A DNA stretch of 64,000 bases from Dipteronia dyeriana (Eukaryota > Streptophyta > Magnoliopsida > Sapindales > Sapindaceae). The stretch lies in the NCBI GenBank assembly GCA_032871835.1, contig CM065299.1, positions 26,801,074 to 26,865,073 of the forward strand, written 5' to 3'. The position numbers and the translations under genes were made by a program. The notes under the pieces are model-generated. The model was not told the DNA's origin and made no database searches. It worked only from the letters and a program-made list of their open reading frames with translations. Below, one piece after another: positions 12,320 through 61,329 of the stretch; position 1 is the first letter of the stretch; each line of letters begins with the position of its first letter.

Positions 12320-13598
12320 GAGTTATTGTAATATTACCGGTTTAATAAGTTAAGTTTGAAAGACACCTATTACGGTGAACAACCGCATATAGCCCTTAAA
12401 TAATCAATTTTTAATTCTCTTTATACTTTCATCTCCAAACTTTTATAATTGAAAATAGTAACTCATCTCTCTCTCTATCCCTAAAAAACTTGTCTGAAAA
12501 TCGATCTATAATTTGTCTGAACATGATCTATTTTTTTTGATAAGTTCACGAGCTGTAGTATATATCAGAGATTCTGTTACATTGGTTCGAGCTTTTTTTT
12601 GATATGTTTATGAGCTATTTTGTAATTGGTCTGAGTATTTTTTTTTTAAATTTGTCTGAGCTTTTTTATATTAGTATAAGCATTTTTAAACTGCTGCAAA
12701 CAAGTTTATAATCTTAAACAAAAAAACTCAAACCCTTAAGAAAAAAGCTCGAGCCCTTAAGAAAAAAGCTCGAGCCCTTAAGAAAAAAAATCAATCCCTC
12801 ACAAAAAAAGCTCGACCCTTAAAAAAAAAAACTCGATCATGTAAAAAAAAAAAGTTCGATCCTTAATAAAAAAAGCTCGATCCCTTACAAAAAAAGGCTC
12901 GATCATGTACAAAAAAGCTCGATCATTTAAAAAAAAAGCTCGATTCTTAACAAAAAAAGCTCGATTATGTACAAAAAAGCTCGATTATGTACAAAAAAAC
13001 TCGTTCTCTTACAAAAAAACTCGATCCCTCTAAAAAAAAAAGCTCGATCACTCATAAAAAAAACTCGATCCTTTACAAAATAAGCTCGATCATGTAAAAA
13101 AAAAGCTCGATCCTTAACAAAAAAAGCTCGATTATATATAAAAAAGCTCGATCTCTCACAAAAGTCGATCTTTTACAAAAAAAAACTCAATCCTTAACAA
13201 AAGAAAACTCGATCCCTTACAAAAAAAGTTCGATTTTTTTTTTTTTTAAAAAAGCTCGGAAATGTTTTAAAAAGTCTCAAAAACCAAGATATTCATCTTC
13301 GTCAATACACAACATATCAAATAAAAAAAAGCTCCGCCGGCCAGCTCGACTACCGCGAGCTTGGCGGGGAGCTCGACCTCCGAATGCGTCTGCGTAGTGC
13401 CACTCCGTCGCCGTTCAAATAATTGTATGGGTTTTAACGAGACTTTCTCTCTCTACTTCATAACTCCGTCACTGTAAAATGAATGAAAGAAATCTGATAT
13501 GGAACAACTATTGAGAGTATTTTTATCCGTTCACCATAATTGGTGCCTTTTAAATATAAGCTATTAAAGTAGTAATAGTGTTAAAATACCACTACTAA
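12320..13598. mobile_element. TIR element B with AGCTCGA minisatellite core
   Basis: The left terminal stretch at about 12335-12385 (GGTTTAATAAGTTAAG, then GAAAGACACC, then ACGGTGAAC) is an inverse repeat of about 13520-13570 (GTTCACCATAATTGGTGCC and onward). These termini match element A at 2455-3185. Both elements also share the GC-rich block GACGCATTCGG..TCGAGCTC. There is no ORF. Confidence 0.7.
12720..13260. repeat. Minisatellite: AAAAAAGCTCGATC-type units
   Basis: More than twenty degenerate units of about 18-22 bp, each an A-run followed by GCTCGATC and a variable CCTTAC/ATGTAC segment, fill the core of element B. Confidence 0.85.
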
Positions 13599-14166: not shown

Positions 14167-15478
14167 TGTTAACAGAGAATTTGCTCAAGGTGAAATTTTT
14201 TGGTTAACACCCTCGAGACCACTACCGCGTAGGTGGTGGCCGGGGTTGATACCTTAGGTATCTAACCTGTTCGAACAAAGGTGGTTGTTTGAATGTGAAT
14301 ACAATGGGAATGAGAATATAATTTTTTTTTATAGATCATGCATATCGTATAAAAATCTCTCAAATACTCTTAATCTTGCTGGGATTCAATAGGGTGACCA
14401 CCTCGTGCCTGTCGAATAGTAGACAATAGTGGAGGTCGTATTCTGATGACAGAATTTAAGTCGGAGACTCAATCAATAACTCTTCTCCCTATGTCGCTCT
14501 TTACTGTCGATTTTTTTTCTTCCTTTCATCGATCATGCTTGGCATATTTATACATGGTCCGAATGGTTTAAACTTATGGATCTCCCGCCCTGATTCTCTG
14601 AATCCCTTCCCTCATTATCGGGCAAGATCTTTTATTTAAAAGTCAATGACTTTGAGTTAATAACGGATTCGAGAATATCTTTGGTGGAGATTAGTTTGTT
14701 TCATTTTTGAACTCAATCTCTTGCCTTACGCGTACACAAAATTTTAATGTTTGTTGGAGTGTATATATGATTTTGCATGTATTCATGGCATGATTCTTCA
14801 TGGAGGTCGTCTAGTTAGGCATTTTTTTTACAGAACGAGGTACACCCTTACCGTAGTTCTGGTCCCAGAAGCTTTGGCATAACCCTCCTAGTCCTTTAAA
14901 GCTCGAGACGGCCTTATGGGCCCTTATTGAGGGTAACACTGTTTAGGCGGGCTTCATCTTTCTTATCCATATAGGTTCAAGCTTTCCTTAGCGAGTTGGA
15001 GCATGGCTATAACGTGAATCTGATCCCCTTAAGGGCCCCCCTTTTTGTGTCTAGAGAGGATATCGGGCTTCTGTAGAGGTTGACGAGCTTTTGGTTAGGC
15101 TACGAGTTAATCATAACCTCAGGAAGCCATGATTTAGAAGGAGCTCAATTTGTTTGTGTCAGGCTTCACCTGAAAAGCCTTCTGAGCTCGATGACCTTTT
15201 CCTTGCTTTCAAGGGGTGGTTCTGTAGCCAGTCAGGCCCAAGAAACTGAGGTTCCAGAATAGGTGATATTGAGAAGCCAGAATAACCGCGTATCGGGCTT
15301 TGCCCGAATTCTAGTGTCTGCGTGAGGGGTTTAACTTGGTCGTGTCGAGCTTTATTCCTGATAGTTCTGAAGCCCGACGACCCTTTCTCGCCTCTGCAGG
15401 GTAGCTTTATGGCTCGTCCGGGGTTCAATGAATGGTGAACTCGGGCTTTGATTCGAGCTAGGAGAGTGGAAACTTTCT

Positions 15479-15550
15479 CTTTGGTCCCTGATAATAGCAA
15501 AATTTGGCTAGGGGACCAAAGAGAAACTTTGCTATTATCAGGGACCAAAG
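15479..15550. repeat. 23-bp perfect inverted repeat at the LTR junction
   Basis: Bases 15479-15501 (CTTTGGTCCCTGATAATAGC then AAA) are perfectly inverted at 15528-15550. The second arm lies in about 29 extra bases absent from other LTR copies. They look copied from the junction (TSD plus LTR start) in inverse orientation. Confidence 0.85.
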
Positions 15551-16742
15551 AGAAATTTTCCACTCTCCTAGCTCAAATCAAAGCCCGAGTTTACCATTCA
15601 TTAAACCCCGGACGAGCTATAAAGATACCCCGCGAAGCAAGGAGGGGTCATCGGGCTTCAGAACTATCAAGAATGGAGCCCGACACGATCAGGTCGAACC
15701 CTCACGCCTACCTTGGAATATGGACATAGCCCGATACGTGGTTATTCATGTTTCCCGAGATCACTTATCCTGGAATCCCGGTTCCTGAGGTCAAGCTTCA
15801 AAACTACCCCATGAAAGCAAGGAAAGGTCTCCGAGCTCAGGAAGCACTCGAAGTAAAGCCCGACAAACAAAGTGAGCTTCTTCCAGATTAAGGCTTCCCG
15901 AGGTCAAATTTAACTCGTAGCCTAAACCAGAAGCCCACCAATCTTTCTAAAAGCCCGCTATCCCAACCATATATGAAAAGAGAGCCTTTAAGTGGATCAG
16001 ATTCGTGCTATAGCTAATGCTCCAATTCGCTAAGGGACACTTGTAACCTATCTGAACATGAAAGAAGAAACTCGCCTAATCCACACTACCCCCAGAAAGT
16101 GCCCATAAGATCGTCCCAAGCTTCTGGAACTAGAACTAAGGCATAGGACTAGATCATATCTACACTCCAACGAACATTAAAACTCTGCATATGTGTAAGA
16201 TAAGAGATTGAGTCACAGAGGAAACAAGCTTATTTCCACCAACGATAGTCTTAAGTCTGTTATTTATTCGAAGTCAATGACTTTTAAATTGAGGATCCCG
16301 CCCGATAAGGAGGGAACAGATTCAGAGAATCATGGTGAGAGATACACCCGTTCAAACTACTTGGACCATGTATAAAATAAGAGAGGTGTGAGGACGAAAG
16401 CAACACATACATAGATCAATAGATAGAACAGAGATTGAGAGAATTAAGCTGAGCCTAAATTCTGTTATCAGAACACGACCACCATTGTATATACTATTCA
16501 ACAGGCACGAGGTTGCCACCCTCCTATGCTCTAGAGAGATTGTGAGTATATTTGAGAGATTTCGGTATACCATTAGTGATCAATAATAAAATTCTCATTT
16601 GCCATCATAGTAGCATTCGAATATTCATTTCTATCCTAACATGTCAGGTATCTAAGGTACTGACCACGGTCACCACCTCCATGGTAGTGGTCTCGAGGGT
16701 GTTATTTGAAATTTCTCATATTGAGTAAATTTCCCGTTAACA
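15489..16742 (+). mobile_element. Solo LTR inserted in the E1 LTR, opposite orientation
   Basis: A full family LTR in plus orientation (starts TGATAATAGCAAAATTTGG, ends CCCGTTAACA) is flanked by perfect 5-bp duplicates GTCCC at 15484-15488 and 16743-16747. No internal domain is present, so it is a solo LTR left by LTR-LTR recombination. A TATAAAA box lies near 16370. With the host LTR it forms a near head-to-head inverted repeat of about 1.25-kb arms. Confidence 0.9.
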
Positions 16743-16770
16743 GTCCCCTAGCCAAATTTTGTTATTAACA

Positions 16771-17143
16771 GAAGTCCCTTATGACTTGAACACCAGTGAT
16801 TGAGTTGGGGTTAGAGTCAGATTCCTTATTTTTAATTGGAAATTTTTTCCTCTTTTACCGTTACCAAATATGGGTGGAAATTGTACCTATGACGATGCAA
16901 GAAAAGACCGGTGTATTCCCCAAAATAATCTGGCTACGTTACGGTCGTTCCTGCAATTCGAGGCAATCCCTCCGAAGATTTTGTTGACGTCACTGCCTCT
17001 TCCTCCTCTATTTAAACCCAACTTCCTTATCACTTTCCTCACGCTTTCTTTCAAACTTCAAGTTCTCAAAAGATTTCTCTCTTTCGCTACCTTTGAGAAG
17101 CTCTTTTATCTTTTTCTTTGTTCTTCAAGCCCCACATCCAACA
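16771..17143. other. E1 spacer between 3' LTR and antisense gene
   Basis: Starts GAAGTCCCTTATGACTTGAA. The equivalent block follows the LTRs of E2 (28122) and E4 (51174), so it is part of the element. On the plus strand it would be the 5' flank of the antisense gene: TATTTAAACCC at about 17009-17019 and the CT-rich stretch before the ATG are in suitable positions for a promoter and 5' UTR. Confidence 0.55.
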
Positions 17144-18150
17144 ATGTCGAATTCTGCTGATAGTATTGAGGCTATGGTTGAGGGCACTGGTAACCCCAAC
17201 CCAGTTCATAGGAAGCGGGCGAGAAAAAACTCGAGCGACGAGGATACTTCCCAGTTCCGTCAGCACCGTCGCTCTGGTAGGAACGTTTCGATTAGCTCTA
17301 GTTTCTCTAATCAACCAGACAATCCTCTGAACTTAGTCGATGAAGATTCTGACAGAGGAGAAATGGCCGACACCATTAGAAAGGGTCAAGTCACGGTTGA
17401 TGGACCCCCTCCAACGAGACCTCTTCCTTATGACCTTAGGGTCATCCCCGAATCTATTGTTGATCCGTAATCGATTGATCGCCTTAGCACTAAATATGGG
17501 ATTCTTGACAGTGTCACCCTCACAGTTCCTCATAGGAACTACGAGGTCTTCAATCAGTCCAAAGGCGTGCTCCCCATCCACATGGCGGCATTATAAAACA
17601 TGGTTAGGCTCTCTCTTCATCCTACTCTTCGGTGAGCTCTTAACGCCCTACAACTAGCTCCCTTTCAGCTGACACCTAACTTTTTGAGGCATCTGATTAG
17701 CTTCCTCGTGCTGTGGAGGAAACAGTGCGAGCTGAGCAAGGTCACCCGGGAGCCTGGAGCAGAAGAGCTGGCTTACCTCTTTCAAATTGAGAGTTTGTCC
17801 GGAGTTCCCTAAGGTCAGTTCTATGTGAAGGCTAAGAACAAACTCAACTTCATCATCCCTGGCGATTCGAAGAAGGACCCAGCTTGGAAGGAAGTGTGGA
17901 TACTGGCAGGAGAGGGGGGGGGGGGGGGGTGATTGGGTAAGCTCCATATTTATCGGCGGGCATGAGTTCGTGGTTCCCACCGCTTTCAACGATAAACCCT
18001 CATGGGACCGGGACTCATTGCCTGCCGAGTCTAAGGTTGTGCTGTTGACCATCCTCGCCAGGAACTACCTGAACTTGAAGTATCCAATTGTTGATCCCTT
18101 TGATTCCCGCAGGGTGAATCGATACCTGCGGATCTCTGATGCTACCCCTC

Positions 18151-18242
18151 GTAAGTAACACCGAGTCACTATGCTTTATTCTGTTAGCTAGCTCGCTTCT
18201 GACATCCTTCTTCTTTCTTTCTTTCTTTCTTTTTTTTATCAG
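18151..18242 (+). other. Intron 1 of E1 antisense gene
   Basis: Donor GTAAGT directly after ACCCCTC, a pyrimidine tract with (TTTC)n repeats, acceptor TATCAG. Same position as in E2 and E4. Confidence 0.8.
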
Positions 18243-18745
18243 TTTTTGTTGTTGCTTCAACTTCCCGTAAAGCCCAACAAGCTAGTACCCCTCCCCCTTT
18301 TGCCAAGTCGGATTGGGAAATCCCTCTGGCTTTCTTAGAAAAGGAGGGGCCACCTACTCCAGCTAGGGTTTCGTTTGCTCTTGCCCCGTCATCTTCCCAA
18401 CATAGGTTCAAGTTGTCACTCCTCGCATCTCAGACTGCCAAGGTGCGGGGTAAATGGGCCTTCATTTCTCAAGCCGCTGATGCAGCAACGTCAACTCCTG
18501 CTCTGGTTGCCCCTACACCTGCTTCTGCCCTTCCACCTACATTCTCAACCTCCAAAGCTTCAAAGGACCCCGAGGTTGGTGTTGAAGGGGTTTCCCCTGT
18601 TCGCCCTCCAAATCAATCCGGCCCTGTCTTTCAAGATGAGGTCATAGGGCAATTCGTTGTTTCCTGCCCCGAGGGTAGTCTTCTTATGATGGCTTCAATG
18701 CCCATAGATGTTCTGATTACCAAGGGTTCTGCCCTCTTGGTCGAG

Positions 18746-18815
18746 GTAGTCATTTCTTTTTATTTTCTCATGCAATAGTTTGATTTGTCATTTCCTAACT
18801 CGAATTTTTTTACAG
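18746..18815 (+). other. Intron 2 of E1 antisense gene
   Basis: Follows LVE (GTCGAG), donor GTAGTC, acceptor TTTACAG before GCCTTCAAATTCC. 70 bp, phase 0, conserved in E2 and E4. Confidence 0.8.
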
Positions 18816-19744
18816 GCCTTCAAATTCCAAGTGGCCATGGGTCACCAGGTGGCTTCTCTCCGTGACCAAGCAACCAGGGCTGAAGCTGAAGCTGAAGCTG
18901 AAGCTGAGTGGGCCATGAAATTGTTTGCACAGGCTCAAGACTTGGTACAAGAGATGGCCTCTTGCCAGAGGGGATGGATACGGAGTAAGTCGGGCTTCGG
19001 TGTGGCCATGAAAGGTTGAAACGATCCTTTGATCAAGAAACCCTCCGTTCTCAACATCGAGCCAGTCAGCGGGATTCTTGGAAGAAAGAAGAAAATGCGC
19101 TTGACATTGAAAACCAAGGTCTGCAAGCCCAAGTTTCCAATCTTCAGGCTGATGCGGATGCCTCTTTCAGTAAATGATACTTCTATGCTTCCTACCAGGT
19201 TGCTGAAGCCCTTCATTCCCCCTTCGACCTATCTGTTATTGCCAACTGGGATAGGGAGGAGATTATAATGAAGGCTGTAGAGATGTCCTATCCTGAAGGT
19301 GACGGAGCTAGAGCTGGGAAACAAGCAGTTGTAGCAGATCCTCTTCTTCCTCCCCTAGTCTTTCCAGTCTCAGGTCCCAAAGAGACCTCTAGCGGGGTTC
19401 GGTCAGCTTAACCCGATGGAGACCTTTCAGAAGCCCGATGAGAGATCTATAATCACCCGAATGAAACCTCTAAAGAGGGACTAGATACAAAACAAAGCCA
19501 GGTAGAATCTTTGGCAAACCTTTTTGATGCAACCATCCCTCATGAGGTTACGGCGGTGGTTAATGAGGTATTGGAGGAGAACCGTACTGAGCAACATGCA
19601 GTGGAGGACCCCCCGGAGGAAGGGGTAGCGGGTGAATGTGGCCATGGTGAGTGAATACCTGAGGGAGAGGTAAGAGAAGCTGGGGGCGAGGTTCAGCAGA
19701 TAGGGGAAGCAGCAAAAGGAAATCAAGAAGAAGCAGGAGCCTAA

Positions 19745-20270: not shown

Positions 20271-20645
20271 GGGGCTATAGCCCGATCGAGGCAGCAGAAG
20301 GGCTATCCAACTATTTTATAGTCTCAAGATCTGGATGACAACTATGCTCTTACACTCAGACCCTTCTTGGGGGTGGTAGCCCAACCAAGGCATCAGAAGG
20401 GCTATCTAGCTATTTCCCAGTCTCGAGATCTGAATGGTAACTATGCTCTTACACTCAGACCCTTCTTGGGGTGGTAGTCCGACCAAGGTAATAAGAGGGC
20501 TATCTAGCTATTTCCCGGTCTCGAGATCTGGATGGCAACTATGCTCTTACACTCAGACCCTTCTTGGCGGGGGTTGGTGCCCGACTGAGGCATCAAGGAT
20601 AGCGAGGGGGCTTCCTCGACTAATCCTTGGTCTTGAGATGACTAT
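20271..20645. repeat. About 99-bp tandem repeats of E1
   Basis: Three to four degenerate units with the words ACTCAGACCCTTCTTGG, GGGCTATCTAGCTATTTCC and GTCTCGAGATCTGGATG. Homologous arrays lie at 31690-32330 (E2), 40290-40660 (E3, inverted) and 54560-54930 (E4). Confidence 0.9.
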
Positions 20646-26913: not shown

Positions 26914-26965
26914 TTTTTAGTCTAAAGCAATAATGTACTCCTTTCTTTTTATCAATAAAGCTTGT

Positions 26966-28121
26966 TGTTGATGGAAAATTTGCTCAGAATGAGAAATTTC
27001 TGCTAACACCCTCGAGAGAACTACCACGAAAGTGGTGGCTGGGGTCGGTACCGTTGGTACTTGACCTGTTAAGAGGTAAACGAGAGGCTGGATCATAATA
27101 ACAGTAAATGAGAGCTTTTATTATTGGTACTTGTTTTGAAACACAAATCAGTCTCTTATATGCTCGTAGCCTCTCTAGGATCTAGGAAGGTGGCAACTCT
27201 ATGCTTGTCGAATAGTGGAAACAAAGGTGACCATGTTCTGAGTACAGAATTTAGGCCTTCCCCTATTCTTTTCTATCTTTCTTATTATTTTTCTTCTCTA
27301 TTCTTCTGTATCTCTCCTTTGTGTCATGCTTGGCCCTATTTATATATGGTCCAAGTAGGTTTGAATTTGCTGATATCCCACCATGATCCTTCGAATCCCT
27401 CCCTTCCTTATTGGACTGGATCCCTTATTTTAAAGTGGTTGACCCCGAGTTAATAGCGGAAACGATGATATCGTTAACAAAAACAAGTCGGTTTCTTTTT
27501 AGGGATCAAACACTTGGCTTGCACGTATACATAATTAATTGTTGGTTACCACATAGATATGATCTTGTATGTTATTGCGGCATGGTGTGTCATAGAGGCT
27601 ACCCAGCTAGTTACCTGTCGTCTCGTAGAGCGAGGTAGATCCCTGCTCCGTCTCTGTTCTCAGAAGATTGAGATGCATTTTTTCTAACCCTTGGGGGCTT
27701 GAAGTGACCTTGTAGACATTCTTGGGAGGTAGCCAGGGTAGTGTAGATTTAGGCGTGATTTCTTTTTCATCTCCAGTAGGAGCAGCGGGCTTCCGGAGAG
27801 GTTGGCGGGCTTCTCCCGAATGTCTTTTGAGCTTGGAGACTTCTCCAGGCATTCACGGGATGGTTGAGGAGCTCAACCTTATAACCGAGGTTCCCCGATA
27901 GGTGGCCTGGAGAAGCTCGGGTTCCAGTATTCTTATGAGGGTTCGTCTTGGTTACGCCTGGCTTGTTTTCTGGTAGTTTTAAAGCCGAGCTGGCCTTCCC
28001 TGCTTCTGCGGGATGGCTTTATGGTCTATCCGGGCTTCATGAACTTCGATTATGGGTTTCGACTTGTGGTGGGAAAGTTAAAAATTTCTCTTTGACCTCT
28101 GGCCAAATTTTACTATTAACA
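26966..28121 (-). repeat. 3' LTR of E2
   Basis: 1156 bp, begins TGTTGATGGAAAATTTGC and ends TTTTACTATTAACA. A TATA-type sequence on the minus strand lies near 27335-27350. Confidence 0.92.
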
Positions 28122-28495
28122 GTAGTCCCCTCTGACTTGAACACCGGTGGTAGAGTTGGGGTTGGATTCAGATTCCCTTTTTAATTGAAAAAGTTTTCCG
28201 CTATAAAAATAATTAATGAGAGCGAAATCTTCTCATTAGTTACCCAATATTTGAATTTGAAACAGTATTTTATTTGAAGAAAAACGGATGCAATACGACT
28301 CTCTCCACGGCTCCAGGTGATTTTCCCGAGGATATCGCTGACATCATTACCCTTAATCCTCTATTTAAACCCGGCCTTATTGTCACTTTCTTCACACTTT
28401 TTAAAATCTCAAATTTTTAGATTTCTTCTTTCTTGCTTTTTTTCTGCCGATTTCCCTCTATCTTCCGCTTAGTTTTAAGTTATTCTTACCTATTA
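28122..28495. other. E2 spacer / 5' flank of antisense gene
   Basis: Starts GTAGTCCCCTCTGACTTGAA as in the sister elements. It contains CTCTATTTAAACCCGG (about 28359-28374) and a pyrimidine-rich stretch before the ATG, like the E1 equivalent, which is consistent with a plus-strand promoter. Confidence 0.55.
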
Positions 28496-29485
28496 ATGTC
28501 AACTTCCTCAGACAGTATTGACGCCTTGGTTGAGGGCACCGGAGGTTCTAACCTATTTCCTCGTAAACGGGTGCAAGGAATTTCGAGCGATGAGGAATCT
28601 TCACCGGTCTGCCAGCGCCGGGTTCTAGCAGGAACGTCTCTATTGGCTTTGGCTTCTCGAACTAGCCCGATAACCCTTTAAACCTAGTTGACGAGGATTC
28701 TGATGTCAAGGAGAGAGTCGACGCTGTAAGGAAGGTTCAGATTATAGTGGCGGAGCTTCCTTCCATGGTGATCCTTCCTTTCGAACCCAAGGTCATCCCT
28801 GATTCCACCGTTGACCCTCAGTCGATCAGCCGTCTTCAGGATAAATATGGTATTCTTGACATCGTTTCCCTCACCGTCCCCCACAGGAATTATGACGTTT
28901 TTAGCCCGCCCAAAGGTGTACTTCCCATTCATGTTGTGACCTTCGAGAGCGGGGTGAGGCTCCCTCTTCATCCTACCCTTCGGCGGGCTCTCAACGCTCT
29001 TCAACTGGCTCTGCTCTAACTAACGCCCGGCTTTTGGAGGCATCTAGTCAGCTTCCTCGTGCTGTAGAGGGAGCAATGCAAGATGGGTAATATAGCAAGA
29101 GAGCCCGGGGTATAGGAGCTCGCTTTCCTTTTCCAGATAGGGAGCCTGGCTGGGGTTTCTCAAGGGCAATTCTTTGCCAAGGCCAAGAACAAGTTCAATT
29201 TTATCATCCCCGGGGCTTCAAAGAAGGACCCTGCTGGGAAAGAGGAGTGGATACTGGCGAGGGGAGACTGGGGGAGCTTTGTATTCATCGGCAGGCATGA
29301 GCTCGAGGTTCCTACCGCTTTTAGTGATAAACCCTTGTGGGATCGGGATTCCTTGCCCGCTGAGTCTGAAGCCGTGCTGAACACCATCCGGGCCAGAAAT
29401 TACTTAATTTTGAAATTTCCAACCGCTGACCCTTTCGATCCCGGCAGGGTGAACAAGTACCTGCGGATCTCCGATGCTACTCCTC

Positions 29486-29565
29486 GTAAGTATCTCGTTC
29501 TATCCTATTTTTGAATTGTTGGATGGTTCAGTTCTGATGATCTTGACCCCTCTTTTTTTTAATAG
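29486..29565 (+). other. Intron 1 of E2 antisense gene
   Basis: 80 bp, donor GTAAGT after ACTCCTC, acceptor TTAATAG. Confidence 0.8.
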
Positions 29566-30109
29566 TGTTTGCTGTTGCTCCAGCTTCCCGTGAAACCCGT
29601 AAGCAAGGACCCCTCATCTTCATTCCAGATCATCCCCAAGAGCTCTCTCGGCCGCTTCGAAGAAGGGGAGAGGGGGGGGGGGGGGGTCAACCATTAAGGC
29701 TGTTACCTTGCTTACTTCTACTCCATCACCTTCTCAAGTGAAGTCTAAGATGGCTATCCTTGCGTCTTGGGCGGCAAAGGCTTTAAACCGAGGAGGGACC
29801 GCTTCCCAAGCCAGTGATAAGTCCATTACTGCCCCCTCACCAGTATTTTCTGCTTCAACTGATGCTTCCCCAGTCACATTATCCCTTTCTACTGATCCGG
29901 CTGTATCCAGGGCAGCCCAGATTCCCAAGGATCCCGAAACCGATACTCCTGAGGTCGCCCCTTCTCGCCCATACCAGCAATCGAGCTCGGTGGGCCAGGG
30001 TAAGGTTTGGAAACAATTTGTTACATCTTGTCTAGGCGGCGGGCTTTCTAGGATGACCTCGATGCCCGTGGATATATTGATTACCAAAGGGTCTGCCTTT
30101 CTAGTCGAG

Positions 30110-30179
30110 GTAATCGTCGCTTTTACTTCCTCATTCAGTAGCTTGATTTATCATTTTCTAACATGAATTTCCTTTACAG
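30110..30179 (+). other. Intron 2 of E2 antisense gene
   Basis: 70 bp, donor GTAATC after GTCGAG, acceptor TTTACAG before GCCTTCAAG. Confidence 0.8.
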
Positions 30180-31098
30180 GCCTTCAAGTTTCTAGTAGCC
30201 ATGGGACATCAGGTGGCCTCCCTCTACGATCGGGTAGCCAAGGCTGAGGTGAGGCTGAGCAAGCCATTGGGTTGTTTGCGCGGGCTCAATCCCTGGTCCC
30301 GGAGATGACCTCTAGCCAATAGGGAATGGAAGCACAACTAGCCAAGCTCCAGTGCCACCACGAGAGGTTGAAGCGGGCTTTTGATCGGGAAATCTCCTGT
30401 TGAAGCTACGAGCTAGCCAGCAGGATGACTGGAAGGGAGATGAAGGCTCTAGATGTCGAGAATCAAGCTTTACAGGCTCAAATTACCCAGCTCCAGGCAG
30501 AGGTGGAAGCCTCTTTTAATGAGGGGTATTTCTATGCCTCCTATCAAGTTGTAGTAGCCCTTCCTCCCCTATTTGATCTCTCCAGCATCGCCGGCTGGGA
30601 TAGAGAATAGGTTATGTATCGGGCTGCAGAGATGTCTCACCCCAAAAATGATGGAGCAGGTCATTCTAGGGGAGAGCTGGGAAGCAGTTGGAGGTGTCAG
30701 ATCTGCCTCCTCCTGTTCCAACCTTCTTGGCGTTTGGTCCTAGCGAATCCTTAGGGGGGGGTGGTCCAATCTGAGGAGCTAGAAAGAGACCTTGCTGAAG
30801 CCCAAGATCCTCCCAGGGTGCTTCTAGGAGAAGAGTCATCCGAAGGAAGGATTATGCCCGAGTCAGTGGCCAGCTTTCTCTATGCAGCCATACCGTCTGA
30901 GGTTATGGCGGTGATAAATGAGGTCATGGAGGAGGACCCTGTTGATCCCGAAGCAGCCGGGGCGGATCCCTAGGGGGAGGTGGTTGAGGCAGTAGGTGCC
31001 GCTGACTAGGATGAGCTACGACCAGAGAGAGGAGCAAGGGCGAGGTTCACTCTGTAGAAGAGGAGGCGGGAGGTCCTCAGGAAGACGAAGAAGTTTGA

Positions 31099-31689
31099 GT
31101 TCTCTCCCATGTAATTCATTTTGAATGCCTGGAAAAGGGGGTGGGCATCCCATCTTTAACCGTGTTTGACTTTTTGTCATTTTATTCTTTTTTTGTAGCC
31201 CAGAATCAGGGATTGAGCTCCCTGCTTGCTGTAGCCTTGTTGGGGAATAGGCTCCCCCACTTAATAATAAAGCTTTAATTTTAGATCTAACTCTAACTTC
31301 GACTTGCATGTACTTACTTGATCTCCCTCTAGGTCCAGCATTTGTAGCGAAACGAACTATTTTGGGGGAACAACAAGATAAGAAAACCGTTTAAGCGTGA
31401 AAAAGGACAGTTAGCGTCGGGCTTTCTGACCATAAAAACTCGTAGCTCAACTTCTTTAGTCGATAATCCCCTTGCTTGATTGTAGGCCTGCTATAGTGAG
31501 TAACCATGTATCAATGAGGGCTAGTAACCAGAACTAACTGGTATATTTAGAGTTTAAGTAAATCGAGCCATCTATCCCTAAACTCCTTTAGGGGGCTGTA
31601 GCCCAAGCGAGGCATTAAGTAAAGAACTGTCTAGTCCCCCTTTTTAAGATAGGGATCGGGAAGGCTTTCATATTCTTAAATTCGTGTTT
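31099..31689. other. E2 spacer between antisense gene and repeats
   Basis: No ORF could be supported. Shares GGAAAAGGGGGTGGGCATCCC-like sequence with the same position in E1. Confidence 0.55.
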
Positions 31690-32335
31690 TTTCTGGGGGT
31701 GGTAGCCTGACCAAGGTATCATGAGGGCTATCTAGCTATTTCCTGGTCTCGAGGTCTGGATGACAACTATGCTCTTACACTCAGACCCTTCTTGGGGGTG
31801 GTAGTCTGACCAAGGCATCAGGAGGGCTATCTAGCTATTTCATGGTCTCGAGGTCTGTATGACAACTATACACTTACACTCAGACCCTTCTTGGGGGTGG
31901 TAGCCTGACCAAGGCATCATGAGGGCTATCTAGCTATTTTCTGGTCTCGTGGTCTGGATGACAACTATGCTCTTACACTCAGATCTTTTTTGGGGGTGGT
32001 AGCCCAACCAAGGCATCAGGAGGGCTATCTAGCTATTTCCTGGTCTCGAGGTCTGGATGACAACTATGCTCTTACACTCAGACCCATCTTGGGGGTGGTA
32101 GCCCGACCAAGGCATCAGGAGGGCTATCTAGCTATTTCCTGGTCTCGAGATCTGGATGGCAACTATGCTCTTACACTCAGATCCTTCTTGGAGGTGGTAG
32201 CCCGACCAAGGCATCATGAGGGCTATCTAGCTATTTCCTGGTCTTAAGATCTGGATGACAACTATGCTCCTACACTCAGACCCTTCTTGGCGGGGGGTAG
32301 TGCCTAACCGAGGCATCAGGAGCGATGAGGGGGAT
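31690..32335. repeat. About 99-bp tandem repeat array of E2
   Basis: TCTAGCTATTT recurs at 31731, 31830, 31929, 32028, 32127 and 32226, an exact 99-bp spacing, plus a diverged last unit. Six to seven units, the longest array of the family here. The plus-strand frame at 31990-32247 (GVVARPRHQEGYLAISWSR repeated) results from 99 being divisible by 3 and is not evidence of a protein. Confidence 0.95.
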
Positions 32336-32499: not shown

Positions 32500-33745
32500 C
32501 GCTTGCTCATGAGTCCCCTGTTCAAGGGTAGAACTTTCTAAAGTGATCTGCATTCCAAGTATGATCGATGAGTTGGCCATTCATATCCTCGAGCTTGTAT
32601 ACCCATTGCGGATCACCATCTTTATTAGGTATGGTTCTTCCCAGTTGGGCCCTAGGACCCCTTCTGACCTCTTCCTGGTATTCAACGTTACTTTCCTGAG
32701 AACTAGGTCTCATTCTTTGAAGTTTTGGGCTTTAACCCTCTTGTTGAAGTACCTGGCAATCCTACTTTGGTAGATTGCTTTCTTCTCGGATATTCGATCT
32801 TGTTTTTCCTCCAGAAGGTCCTAGCTAGCTTGGAGCTTACTTTCATTGCTCCCTGGTTCGAAATGTTGGACTCTAAAGAAGGTCAACTTATGCTCGATAG
32901 GTAGGACTGCTTCAACCCCGAAAGCCAGCGAGTAGTGCGTTTCCCCTGTAGCTGTTCTCATTGTAGTGCGGTAAGCCTAGAGGACCTCGGGAAGCTCCTC
33001 TGCCCATCTGCCTTTCTTCTGCTGTAGCTTTTTCTTCAACAACTTCTTAATGGTTTTGTTCGTGGATTCCACCAGACCATTGGTTTGAGGGTGGGCTACT
33101 GAAGCAAACCGAAGGTTGATTCCTAAGCCTTCATAGAAATCTCTGAATTGGCCATTATCGAACTGTTTTCTAAGGTTTGTTATAATGACAAGGGGGGTTC
33201 CGAACCTGAAAACTACAGTAGTCTTGATGAACTTTGTTGTGTTTTCTTCTGATAGTTGGGAGAGTGGTCCGGCTTCGACCCATCTTGTGAAATAGTCAAT
33301 CGCTACGATAACATGCTTGGCCTGACCCAGAGTTGTAGGAAGCGGTCCAATCAAATCAACCCCCCACATAGCAAAGGAGTATGGTGAGCTAAGGGATGAC
33401 AACCGCTCCGGAGGGAGGTGACTTAATTTTGCGGTCTTCTGGCATGCCTCGCAGTCTTGCACCAATTTCTTCACTTCTTGATGGATGGTCAGCCAATAAT
33501 ACCCCATGCGGAGAACCTGATATTCCAAAGCCTCTCTACCAATATGGTTCCCGCATTCCCCAGAATGAATCTCTCTCAAAGACCGCTTGACGTCTTCAGG
33601 GTGCAGGGGAATGGATTTTCCCTTTCGGTATAAATGCCCATCCTCCATACAATACCAGACCGGGAACCTTTTGACTCTCCTAGCTTGGTCGGGCTCCCCG
33701 AGGAGTTTCCCATCCTGTAGATACTCCACTATTGGATCCATCCAG
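32500..33745 (-). pseudogene. E2 integrase
   Basis: The open part 32977-33741 (254 residues) runs MDPIVEYLQDGKLLGEPDQA, zinc-binding region (IHSGECGNHIG, then DCEACQ), core WGVDLIGPLPTTLGQA with the first Asp, AIDYFTRWVEAGPL, IITNLRKQFDN and HPQTNGLVESTNKTIKKLL with the catalytic Glu. Where the sister copies read ADLR, E2 reads TNLR, so the second catalytic Asp is replaced by Asn. A stop follows PEVL; the C-terminal domain (AIYQSRIARYFNKRVKAQNF) continues in frame with stops to about 32522. Confidence 0.88.
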
Positions 33746-33753
33746 CTTGGCTG

Positions 33754-34250
33754 TCAGTCCAAGGTATAAGCTTCCTCACCTGTCATAATGCTAGGTAGGG
33801 GGATTACTTGAAGAGGGACTCCATGAGATTGGGTCTGGCCACCATATGCAGCTATCTTGGCAATGACATCAGCCCAATGATTTAGCTGTCGAGGTATCTT
33901 CTCGATTCTGAATCCCTTAAATATGCTCTTGAGTTGTTGAACCAATTTCAGGAAAGCGATCATATTATCCCCTTTTGCCTGATAATCTCCGGAGACTTGG
34001 TTGACCACGAGTGAAGAGTCGCTCTTGACATTCAGGTAATCAACCCCGAGTTGTATGTCTGCCTTTATTCCAGCTAGAAGGGCTTTGTACTCTGCCTCAT
34101 TGTTCGTGACTTTAAATTCAAACCTGAAACAGTGGCAACACTTAGTTCCTTTTGGGTCGATAATGACAATGCCCGCTCCTCCCCCAACTTTTTTGGAAGC
34201 TCCCTCAGTATAGAGAGTCCACGATTCGTAGCCTTCCTACCAGTTGTCAG
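33754..34250 (-). pseudogene. E2 second RNase H (aRNH)
   Basis: Minus-strand residues LYTEGAS, NNEAEYKALLAG, DYLNVKSDSSLVVNQVSGDY, QAKGDNMIAFLK and ADVIAKIAA trace the four catalytic positions of an archaeal-type RNase H: Asp in TDGAS, Glu in NEAEY, Asp in KSDS, Asp in ADVIAK. The first Asp is Glu here (TEGAS). It lies between the Ty3-type RNase H and INT, as in Tat-clade elements. Confidence 0.8.
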
Positions 34251-34740
34251 ATTCAGGACTCCTCTCAAGGGTTACATCTGTTACCGTGGGGGTTGCCTGG
34301 CCCGAAGGTATCGAGAACTCTGCTACAAAGTCTGCTAGTGTCTGAGCTTTTATCGCGGTCCTAGGTTTATACTTTAAATCAAACTGGGTAAGCTCTAGGT
34401 CCCATATAACCAGTCTTTCGGAAACATCCTGCCTTTGTAAGAATTGACGGAGGTGCTGGTCCGTCACCACTGCTATTGAATGAGCATGGAAGTAGGGATA
34501 AAGTTTCCTTACCGAGGTCACCAAGGCGTAAGCAAGCTTCTCTAACAGAGTATAGTTCTTTTTGGGCTTGGTTAGAGCGTGACTTACATAGTAAATAGGT
34601 CGCTGGATTCTATCCCTGCATTCCTTGACCAAAATCCCGCTCACGGCGGTTTCTGAAACAGCCAAGTATATTTGGAGCTCTTCTCCAGGATTCAGCTTGA
34701 CCAGCAGTAGAGGGCTTGATAGGTATTTTTTCAAAGCTTG
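34251..34740 (-). pseudogene. E2 RNase H (Ty3 type)
   Basis: 165-codon open part (34237-34734): ELQIYLAVSETAVSGILVKE, RPIYYVSHALTKPKKNYTLL, AVVTDQHLRQFL, LELTQFDLKYKPRTAIKAQT, LADFVAEF. A short AGCTTGGAA/AGCTTTGAA repeat immediately upstream (34735-34770) disturbs the join to RT. Confidence 0.85.
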
Positions 34741-35640
34741 GAAAGCTTGGAAAGCTTTGAAAGCTCTCCTGATCCAATTTCATGTTTCTTCCCTGCTTGA
34801 TAGCTTTGAAAAATGGTAGACACTTATCGAGTACACCGAGAGATGAACCTATGGAGCACTGCTACCTGTCCGGTCAAGGCTTGAACCTGTTTAAGAGATG
34901 TGGGGGATTCTAGATCCAGGATAGCCATGATCTTTTTGGGTTAGCCTATATGCCTCTCTCATAGACCATGAAGCCCAGAAATTTCCCCGCAGTTACCGCA
35001 AAGGTGCATTTGAAAGGGTTTAACCTTATCTGGTTCTTCTTTAGGATCATGAAGGTTCTACGAAGGTTGTCCAGGTGGCCTTCTGAGGTTGAAGATTTGG
35101 TGATCATGTCGTCGATATACACTTTCATCAACCTTCCGATTTCGGGCTTGAACAACAGATTGACTAATCGCTGGTAAGTAGTTCTAGCATTTTTGAGCCC
35201 GAAAGGCATCACCTTGTAGCAGTACAAGCCTTGCACTGTGATGAAACTGGTCTTTTCTTGTATCGCGGGATGCATCATAATCTGATTGTACCCGGAAAAT
35301 GCATCCATGAAGCTCAAGAGCTTGTTTCCGGAGGTAGAATCGACCAGCTGATCAATTTTTGGCAGATGGAAGCTGTCCTTCAGGCATGCCCGGTTGTGGT
35401 CGGTGTAGTCTACACACATGTGCCATTTTCCATTTGCCTTTGTTACCGTGACCACGTTAGCAATCCACTCGGGATAACGTGCTTCTCGAATGAAACCCGC
35501 CAGGGATAGTTTGTCCATATCTTCCTGAATCGTAACATTTCTTTCGGTGTTGAAGTGGCGCCTCTTTTGTTTAATGGGCTTAAAGGTCGGATCCACTGCT
35601 AATCTATGAGCAACTAATGTCATTGGGATCCCTAGCATCT
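34741..35640 (-). pseudogene. E2 reverse transcriptase
   Basis: Open for 230 codons (34946-35638): [19 protein letters not shown], the fingers, KANGKWHMCVDYTDHNRACL, LLSFMDAFSGYNQIMMHP with the first palm Asp (FMDAF), ITVQGLYCYKVMPFGLKNAR, and YIDD (35109-35120) in VYIDDMITKSSTSEGH. A stop follows YERGI; thumb and connection sequences (LDLESPTSLKQVQ) continue in frame. RT copies the element RNA to cDNA. This is the best preserved RT in the window, but it is not intact. Confidence 0.88.
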
Positions 35641-37379
35641 CAGGATGACTCCAAACAAAAATGTCGTTGAACTCTTTGAGGAGCCTGATAAGCCCTGTTT
35701 CATTCCCGGCTCAAGGGTGGCTCTAATTTTGACGACCTTCGCGGGATCGCTTATTCGGACATGAGTCTTTTCTAACTTATCCATTGGATAGCCACTGGCC
35801 CATTCCTTTATTTGTTCCTCCATGTCAGGCATTATGAGGTTGTCTTCAAGGTGATCGGTGGACCCTACATCTCCGAGGCTTAGTTTGGGGGTTGCCCTTC
35901 CTTGGATCGTTGTCACCTGGGCGAGTTGTTTTGCTAAGGTGGCTGGGTTAGCCGATACTGCGTAGCATCTCTTAGCTGCTTGCTGATCACCCCGAACTTC
36001 CCCACCTTGTCTCCTACTGAGAACTTCAAGACGTTGTGGTAAATAGAAAGGACCATTTTCAAGGATGACAGAAATGGACTCCCTAATATTGCATTGTAGG
36101 TCGATGGGGTATCTACCACCACGAAGTCGGTCATGATATTCTGCTGGAGAGGTGTTGCTCCAATGATTACTGGCAGAAATTTTGATCCCATGGGTGTGAT
36201 TGAGTCCCCAGTGAACCCATATAAAGGTGTTGTGCAGCTATTGTAACACCACTGTTTCAAGTTTAGCTTTTCCAAGGTATCTTTAAACAGGACGTCAACG
36301 ATGCTACCTGTGTCGATGAGCACACGGTGAACCATGCAGTTTGCAATCTGTACTGTGATCACCTTGGGGTCATCGTGAGGCTGTACGGTGTTGTAGACAT
36401 TTGCTTCAGTGAAAATGATATGTGACAACTGGGAAGCGCTGGTCGGTCTCAGGTCGACCTTAAAGACATCTCGCCCTTTGTCCGTACAAGGGACTTTCCT
36501 AGCATGGTTTTTCTTGGAACTGTTGGAGGTGCCGGCCAGAGTAGGCCCCCCGCTGATGGTGTGTATTATTTGAATCTGTTGTATCAGGTCTGCTTGTTCC
36601 CTCTTATTTTTCTCGGTATGTTCTCGGATCTCAGTTTGTACCTCTCTTCCATCCTGAATGTTTTCCCTGACTTGCTGTAAGAATTCCACCAGGTATCCTC
36701 CTCTTATCAAAGCTTCGATCTGGTTCCGTAGGTTGTAGCATTCTAAAGTGTTGTGTCCCACGTCCTCGTGAAATTCAAAATATTTATAGCGATTTCTCTT
36801 ATCGACCGGGGCTTTCATGGGAGCGGGTTTCTGTAACAAACCCTTGTCCCGAATGGTGAGGTAGACTGTTTCACGGGATGCATTTAAGGGAGTGTAATGA
36901 TCGTACCCCCTCTCATCGTGAGCTATAGGGGCCACTGTCCTAGGAGGTGGTAAAGCTTGGTGAGGAACTCGTTTATCTGGATACCTTTCCGATCTGGGTT
37001 GAGGAAGGGGGAAGCGGTATGTTGATTTATTAGGGGGTTTGTTCTTGCTTTTATGAGCTTGCTCGGGTCTGGGAGCTTCCTTCTTATGTCGCTTTACGAC
37101 TCTCATGCCGTCGTGTTCCATCTTGACATTAAGCTGTTCATCAACCTCAATCTGCTCCAGAGCCCGACCATAAGATTCTTGGTAGGTTTCCAGAGGTCTC
37201 TTGGTAAAAGATCGGAAAAGTTTTACGCCCATAAGTTCCTTCTGAAGTTGGCGAGAGTTTCTTTCTCGGTAAAGACCTCCATCTGGATGACTTCCTGGTG
37301 GAAATGCTCGACATAAGCCCGGAGGGTTTCCCCTCTCTCCTGGATCACGTATTGTAGATGGATCAGGTCCTTCAATCAG
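35632..37379 (-). pseudogene. E2 gag C-terminal region and protease
   Basis: A 432-codon frame (35934-37232) starts in gag (KLFRSFTKRPLETYQESYGR) and passes through YKYFEFHEDVGHNTLECYNL (a His/Cys-containing segment) into the aspartic protease: HRVLIDTGSIVDVLFKDTLE with the DTGS active site (36303-36314), then YGFTGDSITPMGS and STYNAILGSPFLSSLK. A further 94-codon frame (35632-35916) links PR to RT (VVKIRATLEPGMK). Upstream, the frame towards the hAT insertion has a stop. PR processes the polyprotein. Confidence 0.85.
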
Positions 37380-37387
37380 GGCTTAAC

Positions 37388-38035
37388 TAGAGATGCACAT
37401 TTTTCCCCGAGTCCCCAATCCCCTGCGTTCCCATCCCCATTTGGGGATTTTTTTTAGGGGAAAATGGGGAAATAGGGGGGGTGGATGGGGATGAATTTCA
37501 TCCCAAATTGAAATAGGGATGGGGATGGGGATGGGGAGAGGTTCTCCCCATCCCCATTTTCCCATTTTCCCCACAATTATATTGAAATGGGGATGAGGAT
37601 GAGATCCCCCATCCCCATTTCCACATTTCCCCCAAACATATACAAATATAATTATAATATATATTATTAGTTATAATATATATTATTAATTATAATATAT
37701 ATTTGTATTTGTTATATATTAATGGGTTTTATTTTGTATTTCTAGTGGAATGTTTGTTTTTTAGTTTAATTTGTAGTTTTTAGTTTAATGGCGAAATGGA
37801 AAAGCGGAAAAAACGGAAAAACAAAGAAAAATGAAAAATGAAAAATGAAAAATGAAAAAAGAACAGGGAAAATAGGGAAATGGGGATGGGGATGGATATA
37901 CCTCCCCCTAAAATTCCCAATCCCCATTTTCCCCAAATGGGAAAATGGGGAGGGGGGGATAGGGGAAGAGTATAGGAAGTGGGGATGGGGATGAGGGGAC
38001 CTATATCCATCCCCATTTCTAAATGTGCATCCCTA
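37388..38035. mobile_element. Non-autonomous hAT element in E2 gag
   Basis: Perfect 8-bp duplicates GGCTTAAC at 37380-37387 and 38036-38043 flank termini TAGAGATGCACAT and ATGTGCATCCCTA (inverse repeats with one mismatch). An 8-bp TSD and a TAGRGATG-type terminus identify hAT. The 648-bp interior is built of CCCCATCC/GGGGATGG and TATA-rich sequence in inverse symmetry, with no transposase. It splits E2 gag; the minus-strand frame 37780-38562 is a gag/hAT chimera. Confidence 0.92.
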
Positions 38036-38960
38036 GGCTTAACTCCCTGGAATTGTGAGCAGTAATCGGTTGATAACTTGGTGAAGGAATCCACTCTACC
38101 AGTAGGTAGTTTCCTAAACCAGGTTTTAACGTAATCCGTGAGTGTAGAGGGGAACATTTGACACATAGCTGCCCTGGTTGTGTTCTGAACCTCCATCTGT
38201 TGAACGAAGCTCTCTAAGTGGCTCAGGGGATCTTCAGTCCCGAAGAACCTGTCAGTTGGCATTTTGAACTTAGGCAGGAGCTCTGCCTCCCGAACCCTTC
38301 TGGTGAAGGGGGCATTCATTTCACTTAGAGGATATTTCTTATCCTTCTTGTATTTTCCCTTCTTCATTAATTGGACCTCCTTTTGAAGTTCTGCTAACTG
38401 GTCTTTTAGACGTTTGCTTTCAGATTTCCTTGAGTTCATCTCTGCTTTCTCACCATCGGATCCCTCTGACGAACTGGTGACCTCTACCCGGTTCCTTCTT
38501 CGGAGAGGGTCTGCTTGGGGGCTTTGTTGACTTTCTTCTTCCCTACCCCGGGCTTTTCTCATTGAAGTCGTTGGATGGAGAAACTCTTCTTATTCCTAGG
38601 GAAGGACATTTGCCGCGGATTTGACTTGTATTGGTTGATTAAGCGTGGCGGCTCTTTGGGAATGGGGGGTATAGGCCTTAGCCTATCCCGGATCAAGGTT
38701 GGGAGCCCTGCTCTATTACCAGCTGATTCCCGAAGGGCATGTCCCAGGCGATCGAAGGCTGGTTGCCTAGCCCCAGGCATGCTTGACTCCCTCTGATTGC
38801 AAAGATCCGCTTGTTGGATAGCCTCAGCGAGTAGTCGAAGGTGAAAGTTTTCTACAAAGGCCGCCGCTTGTTGGTCAAGCTCTACCTGACTTCCCAGAGG
38901 GGGATCCAGAGCTCGCACAGTGGTTGGCTGGGTGGGAACCTGGCTATAGAGCCCAAATTT
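38036..38960 (-). pseudogene. E2 gag N-terminal half
   Basis: The first part (about 38559-38918) reads RALDPPLGSQVELDQQAAAF and FDRLGHALRES and ends in a stop. The second (38562 down to the hAT) reads RRRNRVEVTSSSEGSDGEK, RLKDQLAELQKEVQLMKKGK (coiled coil) and DPLSHLESFVQQMEVQNTTR, then the gag core CQMFPSTLTDYVKTWFRKLP and GRVDSFTKLSTDYCSQFQG. Gag is separated from its C-terminal half by the hAT insertion. Confidence 0.82.
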
Positions 38961-39117: not shown

Positions 39118-39122
39118 GAAAG

Positions 39123-40222
39123 TGTTGACGGGAATTTTGCTCGGAATGAGAAATTCCTGCTAACACCCTCGAGACTAATACCATGAAAGTGGTGGCCGGG
39201 GTAGGTACCGTTGGTACCTGACCTGTTAAGAGGTAAACGAGAGGCTGGATCGTAATAACAGTAAATGAGAGCTTTTATTATTAATAGTTGCTTTGAAATA
39301 CAAATCACTCTCTTATATGCTCGCAGCCTCTCTAGGATCTAGGAAGGTGGCAACTCTCTGCTTGTCGAATAGTGGCAACAAAGTTGGCCGTGTTCTGAGT
39401 ACAAAATTAAGGCCTTCCCCTATTCTTTTCTATCTTTCTTATTATTTTTCTTCTCTGTTCTTCTGTATCTCTCATCTGTGTCATGCTTGGCTCTATTTAT
39501 GTATGGTCCAAATAGGTTTGAATTTGCTGATATCCCGCCATGATCCTTCGAATCCCTCCCCTCCTTATAGGGCGGGATCCCTTATTTAAAAGTGGTTGAC
39601 CCCGAGTGAATAACGGAAATGATGATATCGTTGACGAAAACAAGTCGGTTTCCTTTTAGAGATCAAACACTTGGCTTGCACGTATACAGAATTACTTGTT
39701 GGTTACTACATAGATATGATCTTGTATGTTATTGCGGCATGGTTTGTCATGGAGGCTACCCAGCTAGTTACCTGTCATCTCGTAGAGCGAGGTAGATCCC
39801 TGCTCCGACTCTGTTCTCAGATGCTTGAGATGGATTTTCCCTGACCTTTGGGGGTATGAAGTGACCCTGTAGACATTCTTGAGAGGTAGCCGGGGTAGTG
39901 TATATTTAGGCATGATTTCTTCTTCATGTCCAGCAAGAGCAACGAGCTTTTGGAATGGTTAGCAGGCTTCTCTCGAATGTCTTTTGAGCTTGGAGACTTC
40001 TCAATGCATTCACTGGGCGGTTGAGAAGCTCGACCTCATAACCGAGGTTCCTCGATAGATGGCCTGGAGAAGCTCGATTTCCAGTATTAGTGTGAGGGCT
40101 CGTATTGGTTGTGCCTGGCTAGTTTTGAAGCCGAGCCGGCCTTCTCTGATCCTTCGGGGTGGCTTTATGGTCTATCCGTTCTTCATGAACGTCGATTATA
40201 GGTTTCAATTTTACTATTAACA
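39123..40222 (-). repeat. 5' LTR of E2
   Basis: 1100 bp, begins TGTTGACGGGAATTTTGC and ends TTTTACTATTAACA. Compared with 26966-28121 it has many substitutions and a deletion of tens of bases near its right end. Confidence 0.92.
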
Positions 40223-40671
40223 CCTGTTTTTTCTCCATATTCAACTATGTTCTACAATGATTTTGGTCTACATGGAAATTTTAACATTATCGTCTCAAGA
40301 CCAGGGGTAAGCCGGGAAAGCCCCCCCGCCACCTCTGATGCCTCGGCCTGGCACTACCTCCCGCCAAGAAGGGTTTGATTATAAGAGCATAGTTGCTATC
40401 CAGATCTCGAGATCAGGAAATAGCTAGATAGTCTTCTTGATGCCTTGGTCGGGCTACCATCCTTAAGAAGGGTCTTGAGTATAAGAGCATAGTTGTCATC
40501 CAGATCTCGAGATCAGGAAATAGATGGAACAACCCTCCTGATACCTTGGATGAGTTACAACCCCCAAGAAGAACTCAAGCTTAAGAGCGCGGTAGCCGTC
40601 CCGATCTCCAACCTAAGAGAGGGCTAGGAAATTCTCATTGATACCTCACTCTGGATATAACCCCCTGGATA
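40223..40671 (+). mobile_element. E3 fragment 2 with inverted tandem repeats
   Basis: Continues E3 beyond E2. Contains about three units of the family's 99-bp repeat in reverse complement (GAGATCAGGAAATAGCTAGA, AAGAAGGGT..AAGAGCATAG), as expected for the plus-oriented E3. At about 40671 it passes into copia C2 LTR sequence. E3's antisense gene is missing. Confidence 0.85.
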
Positions 40672-44923: not shown

Positions 44924-44938
44924 ACATCTGAGAGTCAG

Positions 44939-52556: not shown

Positions 52557-52629
52557 GTAAGTAACACTGAATCATCATGTTTTGTTTCATTGATTAATTT
52601 GATTCCGATGGTTTTCCTTTTTTTAACAG
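52557..52629 (+). other. Intron 1 of E4 antisense gene
   Basis: 73 bp, donor GTAAGT after CTCCTC, acceptor TTAACAG. Confidence 0.78.
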
Positions 52630-53177: not shown

Positions 53178-53246
53178 GTAATCATTCTCTTCATCTTTTC
53201 CTGTAACGGTTTGTTGCGTAACTTTCTAACTTGAACTCTTTTATAG
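53178..53246 (+). other. Intron 2 of E4 antisense gene
   Basis: 69 bp, donor GTAATC after GTCGAG, acceptor TTATAG before GCCTTCAAATTC. Confidence 0.78.
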
Positions 53247-61324: not shown

Positions 61325-61329
61325 CTTTC

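Follow-up and report, generated by a model that had tools for sequence, protein, structure and literature searches.

Antisense open reading frames (ORFs) with a TRP28 domain have been reported in 97% of the recently active clusters of the Retand lineage of plant LTR retrotransposons, in monocots as well as eudicots, and in the same survey 57 of the 104 antisense ORFs detected carry this domain, with some clusters also showing Smc or similar matches (PMC11963269). A further survey lists Transposase_28 in 23% of the Retand elements that it covers (PMC6317226). Both called ORFs by length, one as single ORFs of at least 600 bp, or shorter if they hold TRP28 (PMC11963269), the other as extra ORFs of at least 250 codons found with getorf (PMC6317226). 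Neither procedure searches for spliced genes, and a TRP28 ORF followed by a coiled-coil ORF is the expected outcome when a spliced gene of this kind is read without splicing. Gene23 of Grande is likewise antisense, located in the 3' internal region and equipped with its own upstream promoter, and its protein is said to be nuclear (PMC7264820). The word ‘intron’ is absent from the main text of both PMC11963269 and PMC7264820, and we found no description of introns in the antisense TRP28 gene in the searchable literature, although older primary papers may mention them. Unexpected introns have been reported in ORFs of another plant LTR element (PMC2669250), and a 2020 review calls for a search for antisense and spliced transcripts (PMC7264820). 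The type of gene described here is already known, and its new part, as far as the literature can be searched, is the splice structure: judging from three decayed copies, the standing antisense TRP28 accessory gene of a Tat/Retand-type element is likely to be a spliced gene of three exons.

The window, that is, the whole stretch of 64,000 nt analysed here, is plant DNA with a GC content of 41%, and self-comparison shows that it holds a nest of related LTR elements. Three of these, E1, E2 and E4, are homologous across the antisense gene and pol, with about 67-77% DNA identity in the main blocks, and by their sequence are old, decayed Ty3/gypsy copies of the Tat/Retand type. In all three, the remains of gag-pol lie on the minus strand and the antisense gene occupies the plus strand of the stretch separating pol from the 3' LTR, which bears out the orientation given in the earlier note. 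The best preserved of the three is E2, and its main parts, along with the tandem arrays of all three elements, are as follows:

26966-28121, minus strand: E2 3' LTR, 1,156 bp
39123-40222, minus strand: E2 5' LTR, 1,100 bp, K2P distance of 0.117 to the 3' LTR
32977-38589, minus strand: E2 gag-pol remains, antisense to the TRP28-type gene
31694-32322, unstranded: E2 99-bp tandem array, 6.3 copies, between the antisense gene and pol
20278-20574, unstranded: E1 99-bp tandem array, 3.0 copies
54589-54869, unstranded: E4 99-bp tandem array, 2.8 copies

The K2P distance was computed on 26961-28125 versus 39118-40224. E2 is flanked by a possible 5-bp target site duplication with four of five bases matching (CTTGT at 26961-26965, CCTGT at 40223-40227), and the motif TGGCGCC, found 5 bases inside its right (5') LTR, is taken as a putative primer binding site. 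Its pol domains are ordered as RT (RVT_1), RNase H (RT_RNaseH), a second, archaeal-type RNase H (RVT_3) and integrase (Integrase_H2C2), and RT-RH-aRH-INT is the order given for both Ogre and Retand (PMC6317226). With an internal region of about 11.0 kb, E2, the one copy to which this comparison applies, has both its LTRs and its internal region within the ranges reported for Retand clusters (315-1,194 bp and 7,380-12,869 bp, respectively), of which about half of the elements carry tandem arrays between pol and the 3' LTR (PMC11963269).

Beside E1, another LTR appears to end at 16742, and the following 28 or so bases (16743-16770), which adjoin the internal region, look like the tip of E1's own 3' LTR. 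The stretch 14167-16742 consists of two inverted LTR-like copies, together a 2.6 kb palindrome with arms about 72-77% alike, which seems to interrupt the E1 3' LTR near its inner end. Of the 3' LTR of E4, the inner end survives and reaches to about 51167. Elsewhere in the window, a further element of the same kind occupies 60112-64000, with gag on the plus strand beside an LTR ending at 61324; an antisense region, should it have one, would fall beyond the window. Remains of a Ty1/copia-like element lie on the plus strand at 43487-46633, with an RVT_2 match in the last ORF just under the cutoff. A tandem array of about 25 copies of a 21-bp unit is found at 12713-13234, and an open frame of 281 codons (279 from the first ATG) on the minus strand at 10348-11193 matches Pfam DUF7950 (E 5.5e-54) and is probably a host gene.

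A tblastn search with five pieces of the E1 gene identified three copies of the antisense gene in the window and no other, each with both introns. Their predicted exons and introns are:

17144-18150, plus strand: E1 exon 1, from an ATG, with a basic RKRARK stretch and the Transposase_28-like region
18151-18242, plus strand: E1 intron 1, 92 nt, phase 1, GT-AG, T-rich, lacking codon periodicity
18243-18745, plus strand: E1 exon 2, Ser/Pro/Ala-rich linker, 167 codons with zero stops
18746-18815, plus strand: E1 intron 2, 70 nt, phase 0, with CTAAC at -21
18816-19744, plus strand: E1 exon 3, heptad-like part and acidic tail, terminal stop TAA at 19742-19744
28496-29485, plus strand: E2 exon 1, ATG at 28496, PF04195 match
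29486-29565, plus strand: E2 intron 1, 80 nt
29566-30109, plus strand: E2 exon 2
30110-30179, plus strand: E2 intron 2, 70 nt
30180-31100, plus strand: E2 exon 3, 3' end approximate, with frameshifts and stops
51565-52556, plus strand: E4 exon 1, TTG at the aligned place of the ATG, several stops and one frameshift
52557-52629, plus strand: E4 intron 1, 73 nt
52630-53177, plus strand: E4 exon 2
53178-53246, plus strand: E4 intron 2, 69 nt
53247-54000, plus strand: E4 exon 3, 3' end approximate

The two introns per copy had been proposed in the earlier note, and all six borders indeed read GT...AG in the three copies. Donor 1 is CCTC/GTAAGT throughout, and donor 2 is GTCGAG/GTA followed by (G/A)TC, again in all three, while the acceptors consist of a T-rich tract and then (C/T)AG or TAG. 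In every copy, intron 2 contains a CTAAC 21-22 nt from its 3' end; a branch motif of the CTRAY type is missing from intron 1 of E4, which counts against a spliced gene. The introns have a T content of 0.44-0.51 and a GC content of 0.27-0.36, versus 0.26-0.29 and 0.47-0.52 for the gene. Furthermore, the intron lengths in E4 differ from those in E1 and E2 by non-multiples of three, and the aligned coding frames on either side are identical.

We ranked aligned sites by their minimum score over the three copies, using splice-site matrices of approximate plant consensus frequencies. The ranking is given without a probability, since the matrices are approximate and the borders had been picked by eye beforehand. 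Out of 45 AG aligned in the three copies, the top two are the proposed acceptors, ending at 18242 and 18815 (6.6 and 5.6 bits), and out of 40 aligned GT the top two are the proposed donors at 18151 and 18746 (1.9 and 1.5, with the next at 0.5). The minus strand, with 58 aligned AG and 17 aligned GT, yields a top score of 0.6 for either kind of site. The next-best aligned AG on the plus strand, at 19842 (4.8 bits) and 16771 (4.0 bits), are nearly as good, which counts against the proposal. When each copy is taken singly, the two highest-scoring AG sites, out of 198 in E1, 198 in E2 and 162 in E4, are again the proposed acceptors. The donors are less distinct and their scores modest, which likewise counts against: among 131, 120 and 116 GT sites, those of intron 1 rank 10th, 9th and 8th, and those of intron 2 rank 15th, 1st and 2nd. 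The site at 19842, a T-rich tract followed by AG in all three copies, is a third acceptor-like site about 100 nt beyond the E1 stop, and a third intron near the 3' end of the gene is possible there.

The introns were also said to interrupt the gene at the same codons, after an ATPR block and after LVE. Their places do match in the three copies, but the R of ATPR turned out to be a read-through into intron 1: exon 1 ends in ATP plus one base, so that intron 1 is in phase 1, inside a codon, and intron 2 is in phase 0. Similarly, the claim that joining the exons restores the frame holds at the junctions but not over the gene as a whole, which is riddled with stops and frameshifts that the earlier note did not mention. 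In E1, exon 1 is interrupted by four in-frame stops and, near 17918, by a frameshift in a run of G, and exon 3 by a frameshift near 18971 and five in-frame stops ahead of the terminal stop. Three stops were counted in E2 within 28666-29484 and four in the piece of exon 3 considered, plus frameshifts, and five pieces of E4 contain 1, 7, 4, 1 and 2 stops, respectively, again with frameshifts. By sequence, all three copies are dead as genes, and what they preserve is a past structure.

That the core exon pieces once encoded protein under selection follows from comparison of the copies by codon-by-codon Nei-Gojobori counting, with the frame taken from E1. The earlier note had proposed a dN/dS below 1 across the exons as a check, and the core pieces give 0.14 (E1-E2, 415 codons), 0.23 (E1-E4, 414 codons) and 0.16 (E2-E4, 412 codons), compared to 0.90-1.39 in the other two frames. 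The core total excludes the N-terminal part of exon 1, the exon 2 linker, the exon 3 tail and stop codons (10, 14 and 12), and takes in the first codons of exon 2, for which a different frame looks the better one. For the parts outside the core, the ratios in the same order of pairs are 0.09, 0.22 and 0.22 (exon 1 N-terminal part), 0.49, 0.82 and 0.43 (exon 2 linker), and 0.49, 0.43 and 0.37 (exon 3 tail). All of these are rough, because synonymous differences are near saturation (pS 0.54-0.66 between copies). As a yardstick, RNase H, archaeal-type RNase H and integrase of the same copies reach 0.10-0.35, and RT reaches 0.07 and 0.32 in the two computable pairs of 65-67 codons. The sequence thereby shows past purifying selection on the core exon pieces, of about the same strength as on pol. 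Moreover, the pS between copies lies far above the K2P distance of the E2 LTRs, from which it can be deduced that most of the divergence, and with it the intron structure, had arisen before E2 inserted.

Codon periodicity differs along the gene. It is strong in exon 1 (p 3e-4 to 1e-12 for the N-terminal part and core a, 2e-4 to 2e-3 for core b) and in exon 3b (p 2e-6 to 8e-5), and weaker in exon 3a (0.05 to 6e-5); coding selection is accordingly graded as clear for exon 1 and exon 3b and as weaker for exon 3a. The exon 3 tail is weakly and not cleanly periodic (p 0.02, 0.03 and 0.28), and the exon 2 linker is without periodicity (p 0.23-0.60), both of which count against the three-exon gene. 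The 3' part of exon 2 is periodic in both pairs with E2 (p about 0.002), the only pairs in which coding selection is seen there; between E1 and E4 it shows no periodicity (p 0.90) and a dN/dS of 0.64, despite 70-74% identity of exon 2. Intron 1 shows no codon periodicity (p 0.34-0.77). For intron 2, unevenness over 69 columns has p values of 0.20, 0.005 (E1-E4) and 0.24, and the E1-E4 excess falls on the third-position phase of exon 3, with its frame extended backwards, which counts against an intron; the only explanation we can offer for it is chance on so few columns. The start of exon 2 poses a similar difficulty, as its first 11 codons (18243-18275) read (F/C)LLLLQLPVKP in a frame other than the one set by the splice, and in that frame nearly all differences between the copies are synonymous. 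Taking FLLLLQLPVKP as the actual start of exon 2 would need another donor phase, and the open exon 2 of E1 favours the proposed frame.

The predicted protein agrees for the larger part with how it had been described in the earlier note. Its Transposase_28-like region is recognised as PF04195 (TRP28) in exon 1 of E2, where it scores 28.7 bits (cutoff 26.2) when stops are treated as residues, and it falls below the cutoff in E1 (18.7-19.2 bits); the scanned piece of E4, whose start lies within the domain, gave no PF04195 match. An antisense TRP28 ORF of the sort that marks Retand is found, as such, in one of the three copies (E2). The Ser/Pro-rich linker is recovered in exon 2, which is rich in Ser, Pro and Ala. 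As for the coiled-coil acidic tail, exon 3 does have a heptad-like part and an acidic tail, while the coiled coil amounts to a sequence pattern and a weak heptad count, with an a/d excess that is weak for E1 and E4 and stronger for E2. AlphaFold2 gave a mean pLDDT of 31 for exon 1, rendering the predicted fold unusable. The full-length spliced query had no protein relatives at E <= 0.001 among 7993 candidates scored, and scoring on residues 111-334 yielded none at E <= 0.1 among 1091 candidates. With an alignment of exon 1, four of 7994 scored proteins matched, all of them Dipteronia dyeriana gene models with 56-73% identity across 24-44% of the query, none of which crosses a junction. Three of the four hold the match beside sequence of other kinds, and one of the Dipteronia proteins, P0001, scores 24.2 bits for PF04195. 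Viral contigs contained no relatives of the E2 RT or of the exon 1 alignment, and relatives were likewise absent among PDB sequences and in bacterial and archaeal genome contigs, the latter as expected. An intact or distant relative with exons 2 and 3 was not found among the protein candidates scored or the viral, bacterial and archaeal contigs, which counts against the three-exon gene.

Signals for transcription of the gene may be present as well. In E1, the following feature precedes the gene:

17008-17016, plus strand: putative antisense promoter element, TATA-like box CTATTTAAA, about 135 nt upstream of the ATG

All three copies share the TATA-like CTATTTA(A/T)A at one aligned place (28362 in E2, 51426 in E4), which lies some 240-260 bp away from the 3' LTR and some 135-140 nt ahead of the start position and fits the upstream promoter of Grande gene23 (PMC7264820). 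Downstream of the gene, an AATAAA occurs at 19951 in E1 and at 31266 in E2, and in E4 only weaker variants are present in the stretch scanned.

Could the same observations be explained without splicing? If the TRP28 ORF simply ended just past ATPRK and a separate coiled-coil ORF followed, the spacers would be merely intron-like. The survey of Retand lists antisense TRP28 ORFs plus antisense regions with Smc or similar matches (PMC11963269), which suits such an arrangement, as do the lack of codon periodicity in exon 2 between E1 and E4 and the fact that reading on from exon 1 into intron 1 meets a stop at the third codon (E1, E4) or the tenth (E2). Against it, donor and T-rich/AG acceptor signals are conserved at both spacers in three diverged copies, and intron 2 lies between conserved coding ends (VE/AFKF), where exon 3 has no start codon. 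We therefore regard separate ORFs as unlikely. About as unlikely as separate ORFs, though compatible with a spliced gene, is that the antisense RNA itself is what matters, as a source of dsRNA or siRNA or by interfering with gag-pol transcription, with the protein being secondary. Silencing mediated by dsRNA has been named as a possible role of antisense transcripts (PMC7264820), but the third-position excess and the low dN/dS show that the protein was selected.

The earlier note had also left room for a captured host gene or a lineage-specific factor, and this is where we depart from it. Antisense TRP28 ORFs in 97% of recently active Retand clusters, spread over monocots and eudicots (PMC11963269), imply that the gene is a standing part of the lineage, and it is probably neither a fresh host capture nor lineage-specific. 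A capture would make the three copies the relic of a host gene that was recently taken up with its introns and carried passively, without a function for the element. Host genes typically have introns, and the copies in E1, E2 and E4 are broken; yet a dN/dS of 0.14-0.23 between copies whose split long predates the insertion of E2, the lineage-wide occurrence of such ORFs in Retand (PMC11963269), and the fact that the sole protein relatives found among the candidates scored are the four Dipteronia gene models, three of them beside sequence of other kinds, make a relic of this sort very improbable.

If the gene was indeed spliced, host RNA polymerase II would start at the internal promoter and transcribe it in the direction leading away from the 3' LTR; the spliceosome would join TRP28 (exon 1), the linker (exon 2) and the heptad-like part with the acidic tail (exon 3) into one protein of about 800 residues. 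In line with the earlier note, we infer that introns in this orientation are safe from removal, since the genomic RNA, at full length, represents the other strand, on which the intron reads CT...AC and is not spliced, so that introns would persist through many rounds of transposition. Retention of intron 1 would lead to an early stop, and thus to a short form with TRP28 only. The most likely role for the protein would be that of a nuclear regulatory factor acting in trans on transcription or replication of the element, and such a trans-acting nuclear role has been proposed in reviews for antisense proteins of this kind.

More tentatively, and with expectations somewhat short of even, we propose that the introns are ancestral to Retand, that the antisense TRP28 ORF and the Smc-like coiled-coil ORF behind it form one spliced gene in the majority of flowering plants, and that retention of intron 1 switches between a short and a full protein, much as in the two forms of hbz. 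Should this be true, antisense orientation would be what allowed a retroelement to keep a spliced gene of its own over tens of millions of years. Provided that the spliced structure extends to intact elements, the gene would be a clean natural example of introns kept through reverse transcription by choice of strand. In that case the model now in use for this gene of a widespread plant retrotransposon would be incomplete, and length-based surveys of single ORFs would split one protein into two or three. Its function would then become testable, with the full protein, and not the TRP28 piece, as the thing to express.

The closest counterparts of the gene remain the antisense TRP28 ORFs of Retand, with which it shares features of the lineage, position, orientation, domain and nearby tandem arrays; whereas those are described as single ORFs, the TRP28 ORF here would be exon 1 of a three-exon gene (PMC11963269). 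Functional introns are known from other plant LTR retrotransposons, Ogre and EVADE, but there they are part of the sense RNA and subject to partial removal or alternative splicing, unlike the introns on the antisense strand of E1, E2 and E4 (PMC6317226, PMC12786077). In LTR retrotransposons of bdelloid rotifers, additional ORFs such as ORF3 are expressed from spliced messages as units of their own (PMC5408684). Outside of plants, hbz of HTLV-1 is an antisense gene of a retroelement with spliced and unspliced forms (PMC7412551), a likeness to a retrovirus for which we claim no sequence relation. Finally, Didymium L2066 provides an antisense homing endonuclease gene of a mobile element that contains a short spliceosomal intron, though the element is a group I intron in rDNA and the protein unrelated (PMC9548176).
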